From NCBI RefSeq assembly GCF_900170035.1, contig NZ_LT828540.1:384960-448959 (forward strand): 64,000 nucleotides of DNA. The letters run 5' to 3'. A program made the position numbers and the translations under genes. Below are positions 7,537 through 60,876 of this stretch, piece by piece. The notes beneath the pieces are model-generated. The model searched no databases. It saw only the letters and a program-made list of their open reading frames with translations, and was not told the DNA's origin. Each line of letters starts with the position of its first letter. The stretch's first letter is position 1. This stretch comes from Desulfamplus magnetovallimortis (GTDB lineage: Bacteria; Desulfobacterota; Desulfobacteria; Desulfobacterales; Desulfobacteraceae).

Positions 7537-9140
7537 TGAAAAAACAAAATGAATATCAATTCTGCATGGCGCAGTTCAAACCGGCCATCGTGGGCCTTGC
7601 AGTGCTTTTGGTGCTTGTCCTTGCCTGGACAGGATACCACTGTACACGGCATCCCCACATGAGTGATCTGACAATGGCAGCGGCTGTCACTCCATCAGGT
7701 CCACCCATTGGCGTAAAGGACAAGATGCTTCACCCCTACTGGGGAAACTGCAACAAATGCCATATAACCACAGATGCCGGACAACCGGTTTCCCAGGTAA
7801 TGGCAGGGTCTCCCATTTCCATAAAGGACAAAATGCTCCACGACTACTGGGGAAACTGCCTTCTATGCCACAAGGTAACCGATGGTTTTCAGCCAAAGGG
7901 TAAAAATGCCGGAAAGCCAAAAACAGCAGTTGCTGCTGCATTCACGCCATTCACTCCAGAAAGACTTGGACTTAAACTCCAGCAGGTGACTGGTGCATTA
8001 ATGACGCAGCTTGGCCTTGCCAATGAAGACGGACTTCTGGTGCTTGATGTCACTCCGGGATCAATGGCAGATGCAGCAGGGCTTAAAAAAGGTGACGAGC
8101 TTATACGGGCAGGCAAGGTTCGCCTGGAGTCACTCAACGGTTTTACCAGGGCATTCAGCAATGCAAAGCCCGGTAGCACAGTCAAGATCAATATTTTCAG
8201 GGGGAAAAAACAGCGTAACATATTTCTGAAACTAAAGGATCCTGTCGTAAATTCCAACAGTTCGGTAATACAAAGGCAACAGATGCAGCCACAGGCAGGG
8301 ATGCAACCTGCAGGAACTATTGTAGCAGCTCCGGCAGCTTCAATGACACAAAACCAGATCGAGACCCTTGCTGAACAGCTTGGTGTTCCAAAAACAGCAG
8401 AGGCGGTTAACAATGCTCTGGCAAAACAGAGAGCGCAGCAACAGCAGCAATCCCTGCAAAATGGCAGGATTGTGGCAGCAAACACAGCTCCAATGACCCA
8501 GAACCAGATTGAGACCCTTGCCGAACAACTTGGTGTCCCCAAAACAGCACAGGCGGTTAACAATGCTCTGGCAAGACAGCGGGCACATCAGCAGGGACAA
8601 AATGGAGCTTTGCAGGGTGTTGCTGGTCTGAATTTCGGAAAAGTTGCCATTGCCTCCACAGGTCAGGATATAACAAGCCCTGTTGCTTCAGTTTTTGGTT
8701 CAAGCCCCGGCTTCATTGTATTTGAGCCTCAACAAAGAAGTTACAATGTGGTGACAAACCCCAATGTAAATGACCAGTTCGGGCAAGGAATCCAGACCGG
8801 ACAGTACATGGTGGATATCGGTGTCAGCAATGTAATTGCCGGCAGCTTCACCCCTGAAGCACTTTCAACACTTCATGGATTACGGATCAATGTGTTCCAG
8901 GGAGTCACAGGAAGTGTCCAGGATGTTCTTGCTGCCTACCTTGCAGGAAACCTGATGCCGACCAACAGCGCACAGGCAGAATCTTATCCATATGGTCAAG
9001 GTGCAATTGCACCCTATGCTCAAGGCACAATGATGCCCTATACTCAGGGAGCTATGATTCCCTATGCCCAGGGTTCAATGCAACCCAATGCAACTGGAGC
9101 AGGTGTCAATGGTTATGGAAATTTACGAACAATATACTGA
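7533..9140 (+). CDS. MamP-like magnetochrome-PDZ protein with NifX-type domain
   Basis: Membrane-anchored periplasmic protein (535 residues). In order: anchor helix (about 12-33); two magnetochrome motifs, CNKCH at 73 and CLLCH at 109, each in a Gly-Asn-Cys context after His-x-Tyr-Trp; a PDZ domain (about 140-230); two copies of a ~45-residue helical repeat; a domain of the NifX/NafY iron-molybdenum cofactor superfamily (about 369-473); and Pro-Tyr-Ala-Gln-Gly repeats. PDZ plus two magnetochromes is the MamP theme, and MamP oxidises iron in known systems, but here the hemes precede the PDZ. The NifX-type domain, which binds Fe-S cofactor precursors in nitrogenase assembly, is not part of classical MamP. 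Start overlaps mamB. Confidence 0.75.
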   Translation: MMKKQNEYQFCMAQFKPAIVGLAVLLVLVLAWTGYHCTRHPHMSDLTMAAAVTPSGPPIGVKDKMLHPYWGNCNKCHITTDAGQPVSQVMAGSPISIKDKMLHDYWGNCLLCHKVTDGFQPKGKNAGKPKTAVAAAFTPFTPERLGLKLQQVTGALMTQLGLANEDGLLVLDVTPGSMADAAGLKKGDELIRAGKVRLESLNGFTRAFSNAKPGSTVKINIFRGKKQRNIFLKLKDPVVNSNSSVIQRQQMQPQAGMQPAGTIVAAPAASMTQNQIETLAEQLGVPKTAEAVNNALAKQRAQQQQQSLQNGRIVAANTAPMTQNQIETLAEQLGVPKTAQAVNNALARQRAHQQGQNGALQGVAGLNFGKVAIASTGQDITSPVASVFGSSPGFIVFEPQQRSYNVVTNPNVNDQFGQGIQTGQYMVDIGVSNVIAGSFTPEALSTLHGLRINVFQGVTGSVQDVLAAYLAGNLMPTNSAQAESYPYGQGAIAPYAQGTMMPYTQGAMIPYAQGSMQPNATGAGVNGYGNLRTIY

Positions 9141-13625: not shown

Positions 13626-14552
13626 ATGAAAAGAAACAGACAATTTAAAATCAAACGACTTATTTGGCCAACAACAATCCTTGGAATTTTCATTGCTGGA
13701 GCCATCTTTGTCAATTTTCGTTTCATGACAGATGATCCAGGGGAGAGTACAAACCACCCTGAAGCAGCAGGAACATTTATCCCTGGAAATGCAGCCACGC
13801 AAATGCCTGTGCAGACACCATACACAGGCATGCCTCAGATTCAGGGAAATGGAGGGTATCCGGGAGCTTCTCCGACAACTGCTCTTATGATACAGGAAAG
13901 TATAAGCCATGTGGTCTCACTTATAAGGCCTTCTGTGGTGGCTGTTTCAAGGAAAAACCGTACAAAGGTTCCACCTGAACCCCAGGGAGGGCTTTCCTAT
14001 CTCAACCCTTTTTCTGCAAACTTCATGTCAGAGGGTTCAGGGGTGATCATTAATCCAGAAGGGTATGTTCTGACAACCTTTCAGACAGTGGGAACAGATT
14101 CCACAGTGGATATTAAAATCTTTTCCGGAACAGATAGAACCTGCCAGGCAGATGTCATTGCAGTTGACAGCCAGACTGATCTTGCAGTGCTTAAAATTCG
14201 TGATCACGGCTCATATCCGGCAGTTGTTCTCGGTAATTCGGATCTTCTTGAAGTTGGGGATATTGTCTTTGCCATTGGCAGCCCCTTCGGCTTTTCTCAG
14301 ACCGTAACCATGGGGATTGTCAGCAGCCATAACCGTAATCTAAATATCAACGGCATCCGTTATCCAGACATGATCCAGACCGACGCTGCCATAAACCAGG
14401 GCAACGACGGTGGCCCCCTTGTCAATGTAAAAGGAGAGGTTGTAGGAATCAACATGGCCACATTCATGCCGGGCAATCAATATGCGGGAATAGGCTTTGC
14501 CATCCCCATAAATGATATACTTGCCTTTGTTAACAGCAATCTGCCAAGGTAA
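13626..14552 (+). CDS. mamO: MamO-like degenerate protease
   Basis: Membrane-anchored HtrA/trypsin-fold protein (308 residues) with an N-terminal helix (about 10-30), a Pro/Gly-rich linker and one protease domain. The catalytic His is replaced by Gln153 (Thr-Phe-Gln-Thr-Val), Asp185 remains, and the nucleophile Ser is replaced by Asp261 (Gly-Asn-Asp-Gly-Gly-Pro), so it should not cut peptides. MamO of Magnetospirillum is likewise a protease-fold protein without a working triad that binds metal and activates MamE. The TauE half usual in MamO is missing and sits on the gene just upstream. Gap to the upstream gene is 34 bases, so one operon is likely. Confidence 0.75.
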   Translation: MKRNRQFKIKRLIWPTTILGIFIAGAIFVNFRFMTDDPGESTNHPEAAGTFIPGNAATQMPVQTPYTGMPQIQGNGGYPGASPTTALMIQESISHVVSLIRPSVVAVSRKNRTKVPPEPQGGLSYLNPFSANFMSEGSGVIINPEGYVLTTFQTVGTDSTVDIKIFSGTDRTCQADVIAVDSQTDLAVLKIRDHGSYPAVVLGNSDLLEVGDIVFAIGSPFGFSQTVTMGIVSSHNRNLNINGIRYPDMIQTDAAINQGNDGGPLVNVKGEVVGINMATFMPGNQYAGIGFAIPINDILAFVNSNLPR

Positions 14553-14577
14553 CAATGACTATGGAGACAACTTATCA

Positions 14578-14706
14578 ATGGAAACAATAGAAACAATGGA
14601 AATAACAATAAAAATTATCCTTGTTGCACTCTTTTTTTCCCTGCTGCTTTTTGGAGTTGCAACTGGTGATTTTTTTGAAACATGGAAAAATGGGGCCACC
14701 CTGTGA
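14578..14706 (+). CDS. Small single-helix membrane protein
   Basis: A 42-residue product with an acidic N-terminus (Met-Glu-Thr-Ile-Glu), one hydrophobic helix (about 10-28) and a tail with Phe-Glu-Thr-Trp-Lys-Asn. The tail motif recurs as Phe-Asp-Thr-Trp-Lys-Asn just after the helix in the gene at 15087, so the two are probably related. GGAG lies about 12 bases before ATG 14578. It follows mamO by 25 bases. Family unknown. Confidence 0.5.
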   Translation: METIETMEITIKIILVALFFSLLLFGVATGDFFETWKNGATL

Positions 14707-14738
14707 ACATCCTGCATCGGGTTAGGATAACCCTTTTA

Positions 14739-14788
14739 TATACTGTTCCAGATAATTAAATTGTCAAGCAATAGGGGCAATCCCTTGT
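14739..14788 (+). repeat. Truncated MITE R2
   Basis: Left half of R2 (TATACTGTTCCAGATAA through GGGGCAATCCCTTGTG), cut off where the R1 array begins. Confidence 0.7.
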
Positions 14789-14795
14789 GTTTATT

Positions 14796-15048
14796 GAGAC
14801 TTTCATATAACCAACATGGCGGTTCACCGCCACAATCGAAGAGTTGAAAGTCTTTATAAAAACAGCCATTTGCGGGGACTTTCATATAAACGGCCATGGC
14901 GGATTCACGCCACAATCGAAAAGATGAAAGTCGTTTTAAAAACAGCTACTTACTGAGACTTTCATATAAACGGCCATGGCAGACACACCTGCCACAACGA
15001 AGCATGAAAGTCCTTAGAACCTTAAAAGACGGGGACTTTCTTATAAAA
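14796..15048 (+). repeat. Three tandem R1 palindromic repeats
   Basis: Three ~80-base units, each GACTTTCATATAA, a CATGGC...GCCACAA hairpin core, and ATGAAAGTC at the far end, joined by a TTTTAAAAACAGC-type linker. Cores differ (GGTTCACC, GGATTCACG, AGACACACCT) while arms are kept, so the secondary structure seems conserved. It could form an RNA with three hairpins ahead of the gene at 15087. Confidence 0.65.
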
Positions 15049-15086
15049 AATATCTCCAAAAATATTTTCTGAAGGAGAACTATCAA

Positions 15087-15701
15087 ATGATTGAGGACTA
15101 TTTTAATATCAACATAAAAAGACTGCTCTATTTTGCAGGTGCCATTATAATGGCAGCTTCTGTAACAACACTTCTCTACTGGTTTCTCTATGGGTTTGAT
15201 ACCTGGAAAAACAGCATGAATACGGCATCTGATCTCATGCTGGCAGCCGCCCCAGGCGGTTGAGTCCCTCCAGGTGCCCAGACAGTTGGTCAGGGAGGAA
15301 ATCAGGGAATGGGAATGATGATGCAGGCCGCAGCAACAGCACCGGCTTTTCAGCCCGCGTATCAGGGCAATATCAACAACACCACACCTGCAGGTCAATT
15401 TGTATGCCCTGTACATGGTGCAGCCGGAATGCCGCATTTTGATTCAGCTGGTAACCCGATCTGTCCGTTTGGTGACCAGATAATGCAGTTCCACAGTATT
15501 GGAGGCAACATCATGGGAAGCCCATACAATGGCAATACCGGTAATGCTGCCAGAGGTATCCAAAGTCTGCCCGGCACTTACGGTACGGCAGTTCCATATG
15601 GGAGTGGAGTCTCACCAAACAGATACACCCTTGCGGCCGGCGGTTGAGCGGTACCAGGAAGCATGGCCGGCGGCCCTGCTGGAACAATGAACCCTTTTTG
15701 A
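15087..15701 (+). CDS. Membrane-anchored Gly/Pro-rich protein with two in-frame TGA codons
   Basis: Read through two TGA codons (15261-15263 and 15645-15647), this frame gives one protein of 204 codons. Parts: anchor helix (about 15-35) followed by Phe-Asp-Thr-Trp-Lys-Asn; Ala-Ala-Ala-Pro-Gly-Gly, first TGA, then Val-Pro-Pro-Gly and a Gly/Met/Ala-rich stretch; a small Cys/His module (Cys-Pro-Val-His-Gly, Met-Pro-His, Cys-Pro-Phe-Gly); Ala-Ala-Gly-Gly, second TGA, Ala-Val-Pro-Gly and a C-terminal Asn-Pro-Phe. AAGGAG before ATG 15087 fits. Read normally it would be a 58-residue anchor plus a separate 112-residue ORF from ATG 15309 with no clear ribosome site. GC-rich hairpins follow each TGA. 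Selenocysteine insertion or another recoding is the likely reading; two separate or broken genes remain possible. Confidence 0.5.
15264..15297 (+). promoter_or_regulatory. SECIS-like hairpin after in-frame TGA
   Basis: One base after TGA 15261-15263 a stem can form: TCCCT (15265-15269) with AGGGA (15292-15296) and CCAG (15270-15273) with TTGG (15286-15289), with a two-base bulge and a 12-base loop starting GTG. Position fits a bacterial selenocysteine insertion element, but no consensus sequence can be proven by eye. Confidence 0.35.
15654..15682 (+). promoter_or_regulatory. SECIS-like hairpin after second TGA
   Basis: Downstream of TGA 15645-15647: CCA/TGG, GCA/TGC and GGCC/GGCC pairs (15654-15682) with apical loop GGC and an unpaired T opposite C. 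The apical loop lies about 22 bases after TGA, close to its place in Escherichia coli fdhF. Confidence 0.35.
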
Positions 15702-15774
15702 GAATCTCAATAATGATGAACCTTTAAAAAGTAAACCATTTAAAAACCGATTTCTCAAATCATGAGATGATAAT

Positions 15775-16653
15775 ATGGAACTGACCAGAATCAGACAACT
15801 AATGCAACTTGCAGGGACAGTGCTCTCTAACAGTTATATCGGCACAATTTTTACAAAAAATATCAGCACAGGACCTCTAAAGGGGGTTTGTGTTCCTTTT
15901 TTGAACTGTTATGCCTGCCCTTCGGCTGTTTTTTCATGCCCCATAGGTACTTTGCAGCATTTTGCAGCAATCCGCGCCATTCCATACTATCTGATTGGTT
16001 TCATAGCTGTGGTGGGGCTTACGGTGGGCAGAATGGCATGCGGATGGCTCTGTCCATTTGGGTTTCTCCAGGATATGATGCACAAGATTCCATCTCCCAA
16101 AATGGAGATCCCCGGCACCCTTAGATATGTAAAATACCTTGTACTGTTACTTCTGGTAATAGTTTTACCCTATCTCACAGCCGAGATGACATTTTCCATA
16201 CTCTGCCCTGCTGGCACCCTTACAGCAGGCCTTCCCTGGGCAATATGGAATCCTGTCAATCCACAGACAGGCCTTCCCTTTTTTCCTGATGGACAGGGAG
16301 CCATTTTCTTTATATCCCTTTTTATACTGATAGTTTTTCTTGTATTTTTTATCCTGACAAAAAGACCGTTCTGCAGGATTGCATGCCCAATGGGGGCATT
16401 ACTGGCATTCTTCAATAAGTACAGTATGGTTCAACTGAAAGTGAGCAGCAAATGTGACGGCTGCAATATTTGCAGGGATCTCTGTCCCGTGGATATTAAT
16501 ATTTCCATGGAAGAGGACTCCGGAGAGTGCATTCGCTGCCTTGAATGCACAAGATGTGCACATGTTAAACTCTCTACCCCGTTTTCATCTGATATAAAAG
16601 CCCAAAAACTTTTCAGAAAGGCAAAACTTAAGGGTCAGAGAGTGAAAGGATAA
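15775..16653 (+). CDS. NapH-like membrane polyferredoxin
   Basis: Integral membrane iron-sulfur protein (292 residues) of the NapH/MauM type. Several helices are interleaved with the family's cytoplasmic Cys motifs: CGWLCPFG near 89 and CRIACPMG near 200. Two C-terminal 4Fe-4S sites follow: CDGCNICRDLCP near 227 and CIRCLECTRCAH near 252. An extra Cys cluster near residue 37-55 (Cys-Tyr-Ala-Cys-Pro, Ser-Cys-Pro-Ile-Gly) is also typical. Such proteins pass electrons between quinol and periplasmic cytochromes. Deltaproteobacterial magnetosome clusters carry a ferredoxin of this kind (mad6, as I recall), so it likely feeds or drains the magnetochromes. The start has only a weak ribosome site. 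Confidence 0.75.
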   Translation: MELTRIRQLMQLAGTVLSNSYIGTIFTKNISTGPLKGVCVPFLNCYACPSAVFSCPIGTLQHFAAIRAIPYYLIGFIAVVGLTVGRMACGWLCPFGFLQDMMHKIPSPKMEIPGTLRYVKYLVLLLLVIVLPYLTAEMTFSILCPAGTLTAGLPWAIWNPVNPQTGLPFFPDGQGAIFFISLFILIVFLVFFILTKRPFCRIACPMGALLAFFNKYSMVQLKVSSKCDGCNICRDLCPVDINISMEEDSGECIRCLECTRCAHVKLSTPFSSDIKAQKLFRKAKLKGQRVKG

Positions 16654-16664
16654 TTAGCCCCAAT

Positions 16665-17171
16665 ATGGATAATTCCCGAAAAAACGGCACAGATACTTTT
16701 CTTGAAGAAGATGTAGATTCCTCCATGAATCAGGATGATTATGCCTCCTTTAAGAAAATGGAGAATGATTTGTCTGAAAACAGGGATGATGATTTTCGGA
16801 AAAACAGTTATGAGGATCATTCCTGCAGGTCAAGTTATGACGATCATTCCCAAATGAACGATCGAACAATATGGTTCATCATTGGAATCGTATTTTTGTG
16901 CCTGAGCATTGTTCTTGCTGTTGTATATAACCGTGACAAGGCAAAACCCGACAGCCCCCATGCAATGGTTGCCGCAGGTTTGACACGCATATTCCAGATA
17001 CAGGAATGGAAACCCGGCATGGGAAAACAGCCCCTTGTCTATCACCCTGCGGCAGCCACAACTCCGGTATGGCGTCCCCTGCCCTCGTCTCTCTTTACTG
17101 CGGCAGGTGGTTGAGTCCCTCCGACCGGATCGGCAGGTGGCCGAACAGGAAACAGCGGAATCTTTTTTTGA
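16665..17171 (+). CDS. Acidic membrane-anchored protein with in-frame TGA near C-terminus
   Basis: Reading through TGA at 17112-17114 gives 168 codons; stopping there gives 149 residues. The N-terminal ~65 residues are hydrophilic, rich in Asp, Ser and Asn (repeated Tyr-Asp/Glu-Asp-His-Ser). One helix follows (about 68-87), then a Lys/Pro-rich outer part ending Thr-Ala-Ala-Gly-Gly, TGA, Val-Pro-Pro-Thr-Gly, a Gly-rich tail and Phe-Phe. The Ala-Ala-Gly-Gly-TGA-Val-Pro-Pro context is the same as at 15261 and close to that at 15645. It follows the polyferredoxin by 11 bases. Family not recognised; an acidic tail could bind iron. Confidence 0.5.
17115..17137 (+). promoter_or_regulatory. SECIS-like hairpin after TGA 17112
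   Basis: CCT (17118-17120) and CCGA (17121-17124) pair with TCGG (17130-17133) and AGG (17135-17137), one bulged C, loop CCGGA. The 14-base string GGTTGAGTCCCTCC across this TGA is identical to that at 15261. Confidence 0.35.
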
Positions 17172-17195
17172 GATGATTATACCCGATAATCAAAC

Positions 17196-17310
17196 CTTGG
17201 GTAGTGTCATAAAAGTGTTGATATCTTTTTGTGAAAGCCCTGCTGAATCAAGGTTTGTGAAGAGCTCATCAACATATTTGGGACATCACCCAAACCTTGA
17301 AAGAACAATA
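17196..17310. repeat. Imperfect palindrome, MITE-like
   Basis: A segment starting AACCTTGGGTAGTGTCATAA is imperfectly inverted at its right end (GGACATCACCCAAACCTTG), forming a long hairpin over about 115 bases. No coding capacity. It occupies the gap before the LapA/MamL-like gene. Confidence 0.5.
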
Positions 17311-17357
17311 GTTATCTATAGTAAACTTGACGAACCAATAAAGAGTGATGGAATCTC

Positions 17358-18579
<1,222 letters not shown>

Positions 18580-32650: not shown

Positions 32651-32939
32651 TTCTCAAAGTCGATACATATGATCTTGTAAGCCTTGTCAACACTGTCTGA
32701 ATAAGATTACCAAAATTAACAAGATAAGGCAGGATTATCTATCCTGAGCATCCTATCCATCCTGGTTATCCTGGTTCAGACAACTGCAATAACTTATGAA
32801 AAAGCAATAAAATGTCGATTTTGAGTGTATATCAATCAGCCCTAAATATGAAAATGGCAATTATTTTCACGGTAAACGATCATGGCTGGAACTCAGCCAC
32901 CCCCGAATATGGAAATTTGTATCTATTTCCATGGTAAAA
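32651..32939 (+). repeat. R3 element followed by R5 repeat
   Basis: 32651-32826 is a near-full R3 (TTCTCAAAGTCGAT... to ...AATGTCGATTTTGAGTG). 32829-32939 matches R5 (TATCAATCA..CCC..AATATGAAAATG, TTTTCACGGTAAAC, ATATGGAAATTTGTATCTA), also found at 34429-34556 and in part at 28232-28305 and 57925-57990. Confidence 0.7.
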
Positions 32940-37414: not shown

Positions 37415-40400
37415 ATGGAAAATGATCTGAATAGCAATATAGAAAGGGTATCGGCAGAGGAGAAACGTATTCTTTCAATGAAAAGAAAAATGAAATGGTG
37501 GACAGCAGGCCTTATCATGCTGGCCCTTGTGGCTTTGGGACTTTTCAGCATGGTTTATTTCCCTGGAGCAGTCCAGAAACTGACAACTATCCGGATTTCC
37601 TTTGGAGATAGTTCAGCAACCCGTTCAGACGGACCCGCATATCTTGGAATTGAAATACGGGATCTGCCTAAATCCTCAAGTTTCTTCAGCTCTGGAGGCA
37701 TACTTGTATCCAGGGTTGCACCGGCATCACCTGCCGATGAAAGCGGTTTAAAGGCAGGAGATATAATTCTTCGTTACAACAGAATACGGATAACCGACAC
37801 TCTTCAGTTTCAAGCCATCGTGGCTGAAGCCTCCCCTGGGGACAGGGTTAAACTTACAGTTGAGAGAGATGAAAAAACCCGATATTTTTACTTAGTTCTT
37901 TCAGCGCGCCCCACAAGCCTTGTTCAACTGACAGCAGGCCCTCCATTTTCCCAGGATGATAATGCTGTTGAGCAGTGGGGATGCACCCTTTCACCACTTA
38001 CAGCCTCTTTGAGACAGACCCTTGCCATACCATTGGAAATCAATGGAATTGTTGTGGTTTCAGTCTCTTCCAGCGGCCTTGCAAAAGCATCGGGACTCAT
38101 GCCTGGAGATATAATAACAGGAGTTAATCAACGAGTTACAGCTACAATGGCCGATTTTTACAGTGCCATTGAGGATGAGGAGGAGATAACCCTTAAAGTT
38201 TACAGAAGCGGCAGTATGCTAATTCTGACTGTGGAACAAAAATCCGCACTTCCGCCTCTTGTGACAATTGCAGGGGCTGTGCCGGATGCATCATCCACTG
38301 CCGGAATGCCGGAAACAATACCACCTCCGGGGATGGGACAGGCCACGGCAGGTATGCCAACTGCCGGAACTGCAACAGATGGATTTTTTGGTTCATCAAT
38401 GCCAAGAACTGTAGCAATAGCATCCCAGGGAAGCACCCTTAATGCACCCATGGCACTGCGGTTTGGTACAGCACCATACTTTATCATTGTGGACACAGGA
38501 AGCGGTCAGTACTCGGCAATACAGAACACGGCTCTTGCAGATTCAAGGGGTTACGGAATAATTGCGGCACAGCTTGTTGCCTCAAAAAACGTTGGAGCAA
38601 CCATAGCAGGTTCCTATGGCCTTCAGGCATACACAGGTCTTGTTGCACTCAATATAACCCCGTATGTGGCAAATCCAGGAAGCGTAATTGATGTATTAAA
38701 CCAGTACAGAGAGGCATCCCTTTCCCAGGTTGATCCTGATGATTCACTTTCAGGCTTTGGATATGCCCGCAACATCATTCCAACAGGCGGTGCTCCCTTT
38801 GCAACCGATGACGAAGATGATGAAGAAGAGGAACAAAGTGGCTATAAAGGTATGCCATATAACATTCCTGCACAGGGCAAATATGATCCTGCACTTGATC
38901 CTGCCAATGCATCCACTTCTGATTCTGTTACTTCGGTTCAGGCAACAGCAGGAGTTCTTCCTTCTGCCACTACAGATACATACCTTAATCTGAACCAGCA
39001 GTCAGTGACCTGCATATGCCCTCTGTGCGGCAAAACCTATGACCATCCTGCAGGTGTGCCCTGCTCTTCCTTGGTCTGTCCTGCGGACGGTTCAAGGCTT
39101 ATCAGCCTTAACTCAGGCTCCAGCATCACCTCACCCTCACAGGGTTCAACAGTATCCGAGAGTGTACTTCCTCAGCGTGTGGCTGTTGCAGCAGACGGAG
39201 ATGATCTCAATTCTCCCTTAGCTTTAAGATTCGGCATTGCAAAGTTCTATATTATATATGACATTAAAACCAACCAGTATGCCGCAATTCCCAATACAGC
39301 ACTAAACACTACAGGCGGCTATGGAGTTACAGCAGCCCAGCTTGTGGCTTCAAGGGATGTGGGGGCAACTGTGGCTGTGGCGTATGGACTGCCATCATAT
39401 TATGCATTAAAAACACTTGGTATCAATGTTTATACGGCAGCCCCGGGAAGTGTTGCAACTGTACTCAGTCAATACCGTGCAGCTTCATTATCCCAGATGA
39501 GTGTCACCACTCTTCCCTATGCCCAGTACTTTATTCCAACCGGCGGCGCTCCATTTGCAACTGATGACGAGGATGATGAAGAAGAGGAACAAAGTGGCTA
39601 TAAGGGTATGCCATATAACATTCCTGCACAGGGCAAATATGACCCGGCACTGGATCCGGCCAATGCCTCAACAGAATCAACTTCGATTTTGCCAACGGCC
39701 GGTACCACCCAGAGAGCGGAATACTGCCTTTGTCCCATCTGCCAGATACTTGTGCCACATGCACCTGGAATTTCATGCTCGGACATGGCATGTCCCCAGT
39801 GCGGAAACCGCCTCATGAATGCTGATCCCGGCCAGAGTACAGATACTTTGCCGGAACAGGGAAACACAACCGGCCAACTGCCTTTGCCATCTTCCACCCA
39901 GACACGCAGCTCCACCACTTACACTCTGCCTTACAGTAGCAGTACCTTACCTTACAACAGCAATGATCTGACAGCAACCCAGAATCAGACACAACTGAGA
40001 ACAAATACATCCTTGTTTGTTGCAGGTATGCCAACTGCGGGTATGCCAACGGCAGGTATGCCCACAGCAGGTATGCCTGAAACTATCCCACCAACTGACA
40101 TGGGACAGGGAACAGCCGGAACACCCATTGCAGGAATGCCTACCGCCGGAAGCTCAACACTCTCCACAGGAGTACTCCAGGGTACCATTGACGGAAGCTG
40201 CATATGTCCTGCATGTGGAACAACAGTGCCCCATGTAAGGGGTACAGCTTGTTCTACCCTTTCCTGCCCACGTTGCGGAACTTCCATGATTGGTGAGAGT
40301 ACATCTTTACAGGTTACAGCGGGTATGCCCACGGCAGGGATGCCTACAGCAGGAATGCCCACAGCAGGGATGCCTACAGCGGGGATGCCTACAGCGGGTA

Positions 40401-41392
40401 TGCCAACTGCGGGTATGCCTACGGCAGGAATGCCCGAAACTATTCCACCACCAGGAATGGGACAGAGCACGGCAGGTATGCCTACCGCAGGAATGCCGGA
40501 AACCCTTCCTCCAACAGGACTTGGAGAGACAACAGCAGGACTTACTGTGGCAGGAATTCCGGATATCTCACAGACAGTGGCTGGTGTCACTGTAGCTGGT
40601 ATGCCAACTGCGGGTATGCCTACCGCAGGAATGCCTACCGCAGGAATGCCTACCGCAGGAATGCCGGAAACCCTTCCTCCAACAGGACTTGGAGAGACAA
40701 CAGCAGGACTTGCTGTTGCAGGAATTCCCAATATCTCACAGAGCGTGGCTGGTGTCACTGTAGCTGGTATGCCTACAGCAGGAATGCCAACCGCGGGTAT
40801 GCCTACAGCAGGAATGCCAACTGCGGGTATGCCCGAAACTATTCCACCCCCTGGGATGGGGATAGCAGGTGTAACTGTGGCTGGAATGCCTGAAACCATT
40901 CCTCCGGCAGACATGGGGCCATCTGCAACATCAGTTGCAGGAAGCGGAACAGGAAAGATATGTGTAGCTTCAACCGGAACATCCATCAACTCCAAAATTG
41001 CTGATCTTTTTGAAAAAGCACCCTATTTTCTTATTATTGGCTTTGGAAGCATGGAGGTAGTCAGCAATCCGAATTTAACGGACAAAACAGGTTCAGGTAT
41101 CCAATCTGCCCAGCTTGTTGTAAGTGAAGGCGCAGATGTGGTTATCACAAATGATATAGGTATCAGAGCCATTGAAGAGCTTAACAGACTTCAGGTAAAG
41201 GTCTATACCGGTGTCACAGGAACTGTCAGGGATGCCCTGGACTGGTATCAAAATAACCGTCTGGTTCCCACAAAACTGAACTCTTCACAAGATACATCAG
41301 TAACTGATGAAGATGAAGAGCAACATGGCCCTCCCAGTGCCAGCAAGTCAAAATCAAAAGGTGATACCAAGGGAGACTCTGCCACCCTCTAA
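37415..41392 (+). CDS. Giant PDZ/NifX repeat protein (1325 residues)
   Basis: Membrane-anchored modular protein in the position after mamB that the MamP-like gene occupies in set 1. Order: anchor (about 30-52); PDZ 1 (75-165); PDZ 2 (188-275); Thr-Ala-Gly-Met-Pro repeats; NifX-type domain 1 (331-435); acidic linker Asp-Asp-Glu-Asp-Asp-Glu-Glu-Glu-Glu; Cys knuckle 1 (533-560); NifX-type domain 2 (587-690); the same acidic linker again, almost identical; knuckle 2 (771-798); Thr-Ala-Gly-Met-Pro repeats; knuckle 3 (929-955); a long run of those repeats; NifX-type domain 3 (1181-1285); acidic/basic tail. Knuckles read CxCPxC...(P/D)Hxx(G)...C...CPxxG, a zinc-ribbon or rubredoxin-like pattern. No CxxCH. 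A periplasmic iron or Fe-S handling scaffold is inferred. Confidence 0.7.
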   Translation: MENDLNSNIERVSAEEKRILSMKRKMKWWTAGLIMLALVALGLFSMVYFPGAVQKLTTIRISFGDSSATRSDGPAYLGIEIRDLPKSSSFFSSGGILVSRVAPASPADESGLKAGDIILRYNRIRITDTLQFQAIVAEASPGDRVKLTVERDEKTRYFYLVLSARPTSLVQLTAGPPFSQDDNAVEQWGCTLSPLTASLRQTLAIPLEINGIVVVSVSSSGLAKASGLMPGDIITGVNQRVTATMADFYSAIEDEEEITLKVYRSGSMLILTVEQKSALPPLVTIAGAVPDASSTAGMPETIPPPGMGQATAGMPTAGTATDGFFGSSMPRTVAIASQGSTLNAPMALRFGTAPYFIIVDTGSGQYSAIQNTALADSRGYGIIAAQLVASKNVGATIAGSYGLQAYTGLVALNITPYVANPGSVIDVLNQYREASLSQVDPDDSLSGFGYARNIIPTGGAPFATDDEDDEEEEQSGYKGMPYNIPAQGKYDPALDPANASTSDSVTSVQATAGVLPSATTDTYLNLNQQSVTCICPLCGKTYDHPAGVPCSSLVCPADGSRLISLNSGSSITSPSQGSTVSESVLPQRVAVAADGDDLNSPLALRFGIAKFYIIYDIKTNQYAAIPNTALNTTGGYGVTAAQLVASRDVGATVAVAYGLPSYYALKTLGINVYTAAPGSVATVLSQYRAASLSQMSVTTLPYAQYFIPTGGAPFATDDEDDEEEEQSGYKGMPYNIPAQGKYDPALDPANASTESTSILPTAGTTQRAEYCLCPICQILVPHAPGISCSDMACPQCGNRLMNADPGQSTDTLPEQGNTTGQLPLPSSTQTRSSTTYTLPYSSSTLPYNSNDLTATQNQTQLRTNTSLFVAGMPTAGMPTAGMPTAGMPETIPPTDMGQGTAGTPIAGMPTAGSSTLSTGVLQGTIDGSCICPACGTTVPHVRGTACSTLSCPRCGTSMIGESTSLQVTAGMPTAGMPTAGMPTAGMPTAGMPTAGMPTAGMPTAGMPETIPPPGMGQSTAGMPTAGMPETLPPTGLGETTAGLTVAGIPDISQTVAGVTVAGMPTAGMPTAGMPTAGMPTAGMPETLPPTGLGETTAGLAVAGIPNISQSVAGVTVAGMPTAGMPTAGMPTAGMPTAGMPETIPPPGMGIAGVTVAGMPETIPPADMGPSATSVAGSGTGKICVASTGTSINSKIADLFEKAPYFLIIGFGSMEVVSNPNLTDKTGSGIQSAQLVVSEGADVVITNDIGIRAIEELNRLQVKVYTGVTGTVRDALDWYQNNRLVPTKLNSSQDTSVTDEDEEQHGPPSASKSKSKGDTKGDSATL
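40309..40920 (+). repeat. Minisatellite coding for Thr-Ala-Gly-Met-Pro repeats
   Basis: Fifteen-base units of the form ATGCC(C/T)AC(A/C/G)GC(A/G/T)GG(A/G/T) repeat many times, with longer ~170-base higher-order units (for example 40470-40615 and 40655-40770). Copy number may vary between strains or be misassembled. A long minus-strand ORF here is only a shadow of the repeat. Confidence 0.85.
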
Positions 41393-60169: not shown

Positions 60170-60261
60170 CAGCTTTGTATTGACCCTGCCCCTCACCTGC
60201 ATCAACCTGACGTATGCCAGGTGGGGGCTCTTCCCTGTTTTTCAATGTGGATGGAGAGGCT

Positions 60262-60876
60262 ATGCTTATGCATTCTCATCGTATCATTATCTATTCTGCA
60301 GACAGGGTCAGGGGAGGAATTCTGAAAAAAATATTGACCCTGCACAGCATCCAATCAACTCTCTGCCATAACGTCCTTGAAGTAAAAACAACCATTTCTG
60401 ATAACAAACCTGCGATCCTTATTCTTGATATTCATCGCTCCATTGAAAGTGAAATAATTTTTCTGGCGGATTTTACCAAAATTATTTTGAATAAAACCCC
60501 CTCTACCCATCCTTCTGAAATAGATACAGAAAAACAATTCCCTTCAACATATGTGTTACTTCTTGGAAAACCTTCGGACATTATTAGCTTTGACCTTCCT
60601 GCCCCTGATGATAACCTGAACCGCCCTGCCCTGCTGCATGGTAAAGTTCTGTTTATGCCTAACTTCGACCCTGAAAAGATCCTTGAAAAAACAAAAAAGA
60701 TCCTTGCAATCTCAAACAATTACAGCATAAAATACCCTGAAAATACCCCACAGGATAAAGATATCATTGAAGCTAATCCCAAATATATCACTGAAGATGA
60801 TCCCAAAGATATCATTGAAGATGATTCAGAAGATATTATTGAAGCTGATCTAAAGGAATTTCTAAAACTGGCATGA
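60262..60876 (+). CDS. Receiver-like protein with acidic repeat tail
   Basis: Protein of about 204 residues. The first ~150 look like a divergent response-regulator receiver: Ile-Ile-Ile-Tyr-Ser-Ala-Asp, then Ala-Ile-Leu-Ile-Leu-Asp-Ile-His (candidate phospho-Asp), then Val-Leu-Leu-Leu-Gly-Lys-Pro. The tail has four Asp-Ile-Ile-Glu-x-Asp/Asn-type repeats of about 10 residues. ATG 60262 follows GGAGAGG; ATG 60214 is possible. The stop overlaps the MinD-like start (ATGA), so the two are coupled, as pseudo-receivers and MinD/ParA proteins sometimes are in positioning systems. Confidence 0.55.
   Translation: MLMHSHRIIIYSADRVRGGILKKILTLHSIQSTLCHNVLEVKTTISDNKPAILILDIHRSIESEIIFLADFTKIILNKTPSTHPSEIDTEKQFPSTYVLLLGKPSDIISFDLPAPDDNLNRPALLHGKVLFMPNFDPEKILEKTKKILAISNNYSIKYPENTPQDKDIIEANPKYITEDDPKDIIEDDSEDIIEADLKEFLKLA

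Follow-up and report, generated by a model that had tools for sequence, protein, structure and literature searches.

Selenocysteine decoding is predicted at in-frame UGA codons of Mad4 and MamI-3 in the magnetosome gene cluster of Desulfamplus magnetovallimortis

How are three in-frame TGA codons in a magnetosome gene cluster of Desulfamplus magnetovallimortis read? They lie at positions 15261, 15645 and 17112 of a 64,000-nucleotide (nt) stretch of contig NZ_LT828540.1 (positions 384,960 to 448,959; hereafter the window), in two genes that we assign by gene order to Mad4 and MamI-3. As an earlier note on this DNA had described, each follows Ala-Ala-(Pro)-Gly-Gly in frame and leads into an open Gly/Pro-rich stretch. 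The note proposed that UGA is read through as selenocysteine (Sec) in these magnetosome genes, and the decoding machinery, homologs, downstream hairpins and selection all support that proposal. Judged from sequence, Sec decoding at the UGAs of Mad4 and MamI-3 is highly probable, and Mad4 very probably represents a new family of selenoproteins whose Sec tail is disordered and, in some members, repeated. The work was done in silico on codons, hairpins, machinery, conservation, selection and synteny, from which we infer Sec incorporation, a redox role, the partners and the membrane side.

The gene names rest on synteny; statements from papers cited by PMC number refer to excerpts of those papers. 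In FSS-1, consecutive locus tags carry MamE-Cter, MamEO, MamE-Nter, Mad4, Mad6, MamI-3, MamL and MamM (PMC7951924). The gene order of the window is the same, and its genes are therefore taken as Mad4 (by its position between MamE-Nter and Mad6), Mad6, MamI-3 (between Mad6 and MamL) and MamL. Clusters holding this mam and mad gene set have been assigned to magnetite, that of Desulfamplus BW-1 among them (PMC9145555). For Desulfovibrio magneticus RS-1, the published mutation coordinates in mamL, mad6, mamB, mad2 and mad1 (PMC4287615) map into the homologs that we located in genome G921 (L133), which identifies this genome as RS-1; G853 resembles FSS-1.

With TGA translated as Sec, Mad4 of the window has 204 residues with Sec59 and Sec187 and a true TGA stop at 15699-15701. 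Its order is membrane anchor, AAAPGG-U-VPP (Sec59), a CPVHG...CPFG domain, LAAGG-U-AVPG (Sec187) and a C-terminal MNPF. MamI-3 has 168 residues, with Sec150 in TAAGG-U-VPP, an end in GIFF and a true TGA stop at 17169-17171. Both translations thus show the Asn-Pro-Phe and Ile-Phe-Phe ends reported before. The 14-mer GGTTGAGTCCCTCC, noted as shared by two of the sites, has two occurrences in the window (15258 and 17109), each on the + strand. The pattern GGNGGNTGANNNCCNCC has four matches in the genome beyond the two here, two of which share a repeated stretch while two lie in short broken frames.

Homologs of Mad4 were searched for in overlapping sets of 193, 395, 389, 297 and 389 genomes and by a pattern scan of genome contigs; magnetotactic groups outside Desulfobacterota were reached by one contig pattern scan. 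A search with a single Mad4 protein sequence found no relative, and an alignment-based search yielded 14 loci. Altogether we located 24 copies in 20 genomes, 19 of them besides the source genome and including D. magneticus RS-1. Single copies occur in G000, G002, G003, G004, G006, G007, G009, G123, G145, G152, G169, G197, G593, G616, G651 and G777, and two copies in G268, G778, G853 and G921; the Desulfamplus relatives compared were G002, G003, G004, G006, G007 and G009. Three pairs were merged as one genome each (G197/G1022 and G268/G780, with identical Mad4; G593/G779, with the same tRNA place), and two loci without domain and tail (L013 and L014, E 0.006 and 0.008) were left out of the count, as were unrelated frames from GC-rich contigs.

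All 24 copies carry UGA in a small-residue/Gly-Sec tail, and the UGA and the sequence following it are kept in each. In total, 42 UGAs were counted. Those without a preceding Gly or Ala were excluded, namely the true stops of both window genes and frames outside the gene, and likewise the UGAs after the tails of G123 (LVQ) and G778 (TVR). The tail can be repeated: G152 has three tandem units GGGU[VL]PPT.GPGG, G145 has three UGAs, and G651 has three counted UGAs plus a fourth, uncounted one after GAAP that is probably a stop. In RS-1, the cluster copy reads AAFAGG-U-GGAPTGPVGQFAPR-stop, and the second copy, located near 4.661 Mb and within the island boundaries of PMC4287615, has two UGAs.

The first UGA of the window, between anchor and domain, has counterparts in five other copies (G003, G004, G006, G007 and G009). 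In the other 18 of the 24 copies, anchor and domain form one open frame, and thus readthrough at 15261 restores the usual protein. The claim that this readthrough joins a membrane anchor to a 112-residue open reading frame (ORF) is borne out by these homologs; its companion, that the inner ORF lacks a start signal, does not hold fully, as GGAGG lies 10 nt upstream of the ATG at 15309. Between the two UGAs of Mad4, the ratio of nonsynonymous to synonymous substitution rates (dN/dS) was 0.07-0.31 (8 pairs, both genes with both UGAs), indicating purifying selection. The predicted bias toward synonymous change after the TGA therefore holds between the UGAs, but no firm value was obtained past the last one.

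We then scored hairpins downstream of UGA with a score of our own, which takes loops of 3-5 nt starting 15-23 nt after the codon with a G in the first two loop positions. We modelled this rule on bacterial models of the selenocysteine insertion sequence (SECIS). A hairpin was found at 48 of 48 UGAs (42 in Mad4, 6 in MamI-3), with energies of -4.0 to -16.5 kcal/mol and loops starting 16-23 nt downstream. At all 41 coding sites it was stronger than the mean of synonymous recodings drawn with local codon usage. For 31 coding sites grouped in 23 clusters, which had been analyzed earlier, the combined P-value was 1.7e-10, under an assumption of independent clusters that related sites do not fully satisfy. 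Seven sites have a real stop 2-4 codons past the UGA (four in MamI-3, and one Mad4 each in G145, G853 and G921). There, all seven hairpins were below the shuffled mean (P from <0.001 to 0.049 against shuffled bases); because they lie at or past the stop, protein constraint cannot explain them.

Such hairpins are selective within the window. Across both strands, 56 of 2933 TGA triplets (1.9%) carry a SECIS-like hairpin that matches or exceeds in strength the weakest one at the three sites; among TGAs in open frames the number is 7 of 138, and on the + strand these are only 15261, 15645 and 17112. Mad4 and MamI-3 themselves end in true stops that score 0. Among 16 ordinary UGA stops of the window, one scored -10.5 and two were weak (-1.9 and -1.6). 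For 128 ordinary TGA stops the median was 0 and the 5% quantile -8.8, a comparison confounded by base composition. The sole strong hairpin among the 16 belongs to the frame at 60214-60876 (stop at 60874) and is probably due to chance, since another stop comes two codons further on and the following gene overlaps. Folding confirmed a hairpin after each of the three TGAs (Table 1), as the earlier note had stated, but the third, given there as 17118-17137, was misplaced.

The genome holds the machinery that these signals would need: the check for selA, selB, selC and selD recovered selA, tRNA-Sec (anticodon TCA), full-length selB and selD. Its own selD has an in-frame UGA with the same type of hairpin. 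Among Mad4 genomes, tRNA-Sec was above cut-off in 18 of 20, selB in 10 of the 11 searched (it is split in G002) and selD in 9 of the 13 searched. All nine selD genes have one UGA, and the hairpin is present in 9/9 genomes with full selD (-6.4 to -14.8 kcal/mol). On account of this machinery, the hairpins and the selD parallel, we take the residue to be Sec: SelB and tRNA-Sec would decode the three UGAs, with a hairpin some 20 nt beyond each codon as the directing signal. The earlier note had named homologs ending at the TGA, neutral evolution downstream and a genome lacking Sec genes as grounds for giving up its reading; the UGA and following sequence are kept, selection is purifying and the Sec genes are present, and therefore none of these grounds applies to the first UGA.

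Several observations weigh against Sec decoding or temper the evidence for it. The hairpin rule was set after folds had been inspected, and single hairpins are modest, with a median synonymous P of 0.086 and P = 0.24 for the first site of the window. Without the loop rule, 28 of 31 coding sites fell below the mean in the synonymous test. The Rfam SECIS covariance models gave no match up to E 10 in window positions 14000-18500, and two ordinary MamI-3 UGA stops score -7.5 (G921) and -8.7 (G853). tRNA-Sec was not found in the G004 and G009 assemblies (89% and 85% complete), both of which have full-length selB, and selD was not found in the incomplete G004 assembly. The tail after the last UGA has 14-18 codons, with dN/dS of 0 to 1.5, and is too short for a firm value. 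Finally, none of the 24 Mad4 copies has Cys or Trp at the UGA position or Cys in the tail, contrary to the expectation that homologs would show Cys or another sense codon there; the one sense codon seen is an Arg CGA in a repeat unit. A Cys homolog is a usual, though not obligatory, companion of a selenoprotein. The CGA unit belongs to the second G268 copy (L092, near position 8190), where the hairpin is kept (-9.3); it is one transition away from TGA and looks like a Sec site that has decayed, unless it reflects a sequencing error.

The Sec tail is not confined to Mad4. All six Desulfamplus MamI-3 genes seen have one Sec UGA (the G002 contig ends before MamI-3), and in nine other genomes MamI-3 has no Sec tail, four ending in TAA or TAG and five in UGA. 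In G006, the MamI-3 tail LAAGG-U-PPPVGQAGGMAGQRNLFF almost repeats the Mad4 tail LAAGG-U-PPPGGQAGGMAGNNGTFF; four Desulfamplus MamI-3 genes end in Gly-Sec-Pro-Pro. As a near-identical tail with codon and hairpin is also found on Desulfamplus MamI-3, the tail behaves as a module, and codon, hairpin and tail seem to travel jointly between neighboring genes.

Several side observations accompany these findings. MamI-3 of G145 (L030 10864-11190) has a Mad4-like CPTHG...CPIC domain. Window positions 37415-41392 encode a 1325-residue PDZ protein in which three Nitro_FeMo-Co domains are accompanied by long AGMPTAGMPTAG / AGMPETIPPPGMGQ repeats. In their rhythm, these repeats seem to echo the Sec tail AGGGUVPPTTGPGGQ, Met taking the place of Sec. 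A dispersed repeat (minus strand of the window near 32895; C6:174544 and C15:55591 in the same genome) gives IQISIFGGGU in one of its frames and so imitates the Gly-Gly-Sec pattern with no evident gene. Upstream of Mad4, a non-coding array (14786-15046) combines a pair of 80-nt direct repeats (84% alike) with four copies of the 20-nt GACTTTCATATAA element, spaced by about 80 nt, and with inverted pairs. Between and beyond the two predicted selenoprotein genes, Mad6 matches the NapH/MauN family below the family cut-off, and MamL has a LapA domain at 25.0 bits, below the 28-bit cut-off.

Table 1. Positions of the predicted selenoprotein genes, their signals and adjoining genes (window coordinates unless a locus is named)
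Feature	Positions	Strand	Basis
Mad4, predicted selenoprotein gene	15087..15701	+	TGA-as-Sec translation, 24 homologous copies; name by synteny with FSS-1 (PMC7951924)
Membrane anchor helix of Mad4, residues 10-54	15114..15248	+	AlphaFold2 model, pLDDT mostly >75
UGA, predicted Sec59	15261..15263	+	In-frame; UGA aligned in 5 Desulfamplus relatives; anchor-domain continuous in other 18 copies
SECIS-like hairpin for Sec59	15277..15295	+	-7.3 kcal/mol, weakest of the three; synonymous P 0.24
CP-x-HG...CP-x-G small domain, residues 103-137, possible metal knuckle	15393..15497	+	Conserved alignment columns; weak zinc-finger matches
UGA, predicted Sec187	15645..15647	+	Tail UGA present in 24/24 Mad4 copies
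SECIS-like hairpin for Sec187	15660..15680	+	-11.6 kcal/mol, loop GGC
MamI-3, predicted selenoprotein gene	16665..17171	+	TGA-as-Sec translation; name by synteny
UGA, predicted Sec150	17112..17114	+	UGA in same tail in 6/6 Desulfamplus MamI-3 genes seen
SECIS-like hairpin for Sec150	17125..17149	+	-9.9 kcal/mol, loop AGGUG
Mad6, NapH-like membrane ferredoxin between both predicted selenoprotein genes	15775..16653	+	PF12801 E 5.9e-18; synteny
MamL (LapA-like), next gene of conserved block	17358..17687	+	Synteny
Second-copy Mad4 regions	L137 8184-10025; L134 5939-7070; L136 9903-11257		Near Mad1-like cytochrome

What might such a protein do? Mad4 is predicted to be anchored in the membrane and to combine a small CP-x-HG / CP-x-(C or G) domain with a disordered Gly/Pro-rich tail bearing 1-3 Sec units. 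The AlphaFold2 model shows an anchor helix, the small domain (predicted local distance difference test score, pLDDT, 76-87) and a disordered tail, with pLDDT <50 at residues 58-99 and 147-204, a mean pLDDT of 60.5 and a predicted template modeling score of 0.28. The CP...CP domain resembles the HVO_2523 family weakly (11 of 16 members match, best E 7e-4) and the TFIIE-alpha zinc finger likewise (Z 3.9), and some Mad4 members are without the last Cys. Structure comparison gave no other match above Z 3.9, Foldseek matches were weak, and a sequence search of the PDB returned nothing credible. Together, the fold and profile matches do no more than hint at a zinc finger.

As the most likely function we tentatively favor a mobile redox arm: the flexible selenol tail would move electrons between the ferredoxin Mad6, the multihaem Mad1 and the iron that becomes magnetite. 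The position of Mad6 between the two genes speaks for such a link, and in RS-1 the magnetic response of mad6 and mad1 mutants is limited or absent (PMC4287615). Outside the main block, RS-1, G853 and G778 each have a second Mad4 copy near a Mad1-like cytochrome, the G778 copy also beside a Mad6 paralog, which suggests a Mad4-Mad6-Mad1 unit. We place the redox arm ahead of its main rival, metal binding, because of these second copies and because Mad4 is reported among the proteins enriched in early-stage RS-1 magnetosomes (PMC12748827).

That rival is a serious one, if somewhat short of an even chance: the Sec tail and the CP-x-HG domain would form an arm that binds iron, copper or zinc and serves to handle iron or to buffer metal, with no electron turnover. 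The presence of several Sec per tail and the likeness to small zinc fingers speak for it, but those matches are weak and the neighbors Mad6 and Mad1 are redox proteins. Less credible, and in our view unlikely, is selenium-dependent readthrough as a switch, which would give a short Mad4 without selenium and a tailed one with it, the tail reporting redox or selenium state. The tail is indeed modular and present in a second gene, and a stop at the last UGA spares anchor and domain; however, in six Desulfamplus genes the domain comes after the first UGA and would be lost if translation ended there.

The remaining alternatives concern the decoding itself. UGA could be read as Trp, Cys or another residue by a near-cognate or suppressor tRNA, free of selenium. 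The Sec identity does rest on sequence, with no Cys form to indicate the chemistry, but tRNA-Sec, SelB, SelA and SelD are present, the hairpins match that of selD and 15 of the 16 ordinary UGA stops in the window have no such hairpin, making this very improbable. That the UGAs are ordinary stops, with the downstream frames untranslated or the 112-residue part a separate gene from ATG 15309, is likewise very improbable: TGA ends 16 of the 40 main ORFs checked in the window, as the earlier note had seen, and GGAGG precedes that ATG, but the UGA-free anchor-domain frame of most copies, the dN/dS after the first UGA, the repeated UGA units and the hairpins at every counted site all contradict it. 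Both an ordinary stop with internal start and a general code change were rejected on homologs, selection and hairpin selectivity.

With Sec decoding thus preferred, several consequences follow. Gene calling that treats UGA as a stop truncates Mad4, a gene of the magnetite-type magnetosome clusters of Desulfobacterota. If Mad4 is a selenoprotein, then selenium supply, selB mutants and UGA-to-Cys alleles would give direct access to the redox step of biomineralization, and selenium would be linked to magnetic crystal formation in sulfate-reducing bacteria; RS-1 can be grown in culture, which makes the claim testable. It would also represent a type of selenoprotein that lacks Cys counterparts, places Sec in a disordered repeat tail and allows hairpins beyond the stop codon. 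A bolder reading, possible but doubtful, is that magnetite formation in sulfate-reducing magnetotactic bacteria is selenium-dependent, the tandemly repeatable, spreading Sec-plus-SECIS tail of Mad4 (in Desulfamplus also of MamI-3) serving as a poly-selenol arm by which iron is reduced or passed on at the growing crystal. Were this true, selenocysteine would be used outside any folded active site and without a cysteine counterpart.

How does this compare with known systems? Mad4 and MamI-3 of Desulfobacterota magnetosome clusters share the order MamE-Nter, Mad4, Mad6, MamI-3, MamL, MamM with the genes studied here, but the published descriptions, as far as the excerpts go, are without selenocysteine. 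In the open-licence papers searched, and within the excerpts at hand, no magnetosome selenoprotein was described, and Table 1 of PMC13188914 (119 prokaryotic selenoprotein families according to its authors) lists no magnetosome protein. With the UXX-star and GxGU-type C-terminal selenoproteins (PMC13188914), four Desulfamplus MamI-3 genes share a predicted Sec near the C-terminus (Gly-Sec-Pro-Pro), but no NCBIfam selenoprotein family matches Mad4 (16 sequences scanned) or MamI-3 of the window. The protein type, the repeat tail, the missing Cys form and the magnetosome setting do not appear in the PMC13188914 list; the decoding itself is ordinary. The Trx7/PDZ (seleno)protein NF041199 matches PDZ parts of neighboring magnetosome proteins, far below cut-off, and is unrelated to Mad4. 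Like SelB-dependent bacterial selenoproteins such as SelD of the same genomes, Mad4 has an in-frame UGA, a G-containing loop 16-20 nt downstream, and tRNA-Sec with SelB; it differs in that no Cys counterpart was found and up to three Sec would sit in a disordered tail, not in a folded active site. Animal selenoprotein P also carries several Sec in its C-terminal region. We claim no homology between the two, and each UGA here has its own close hairpin.

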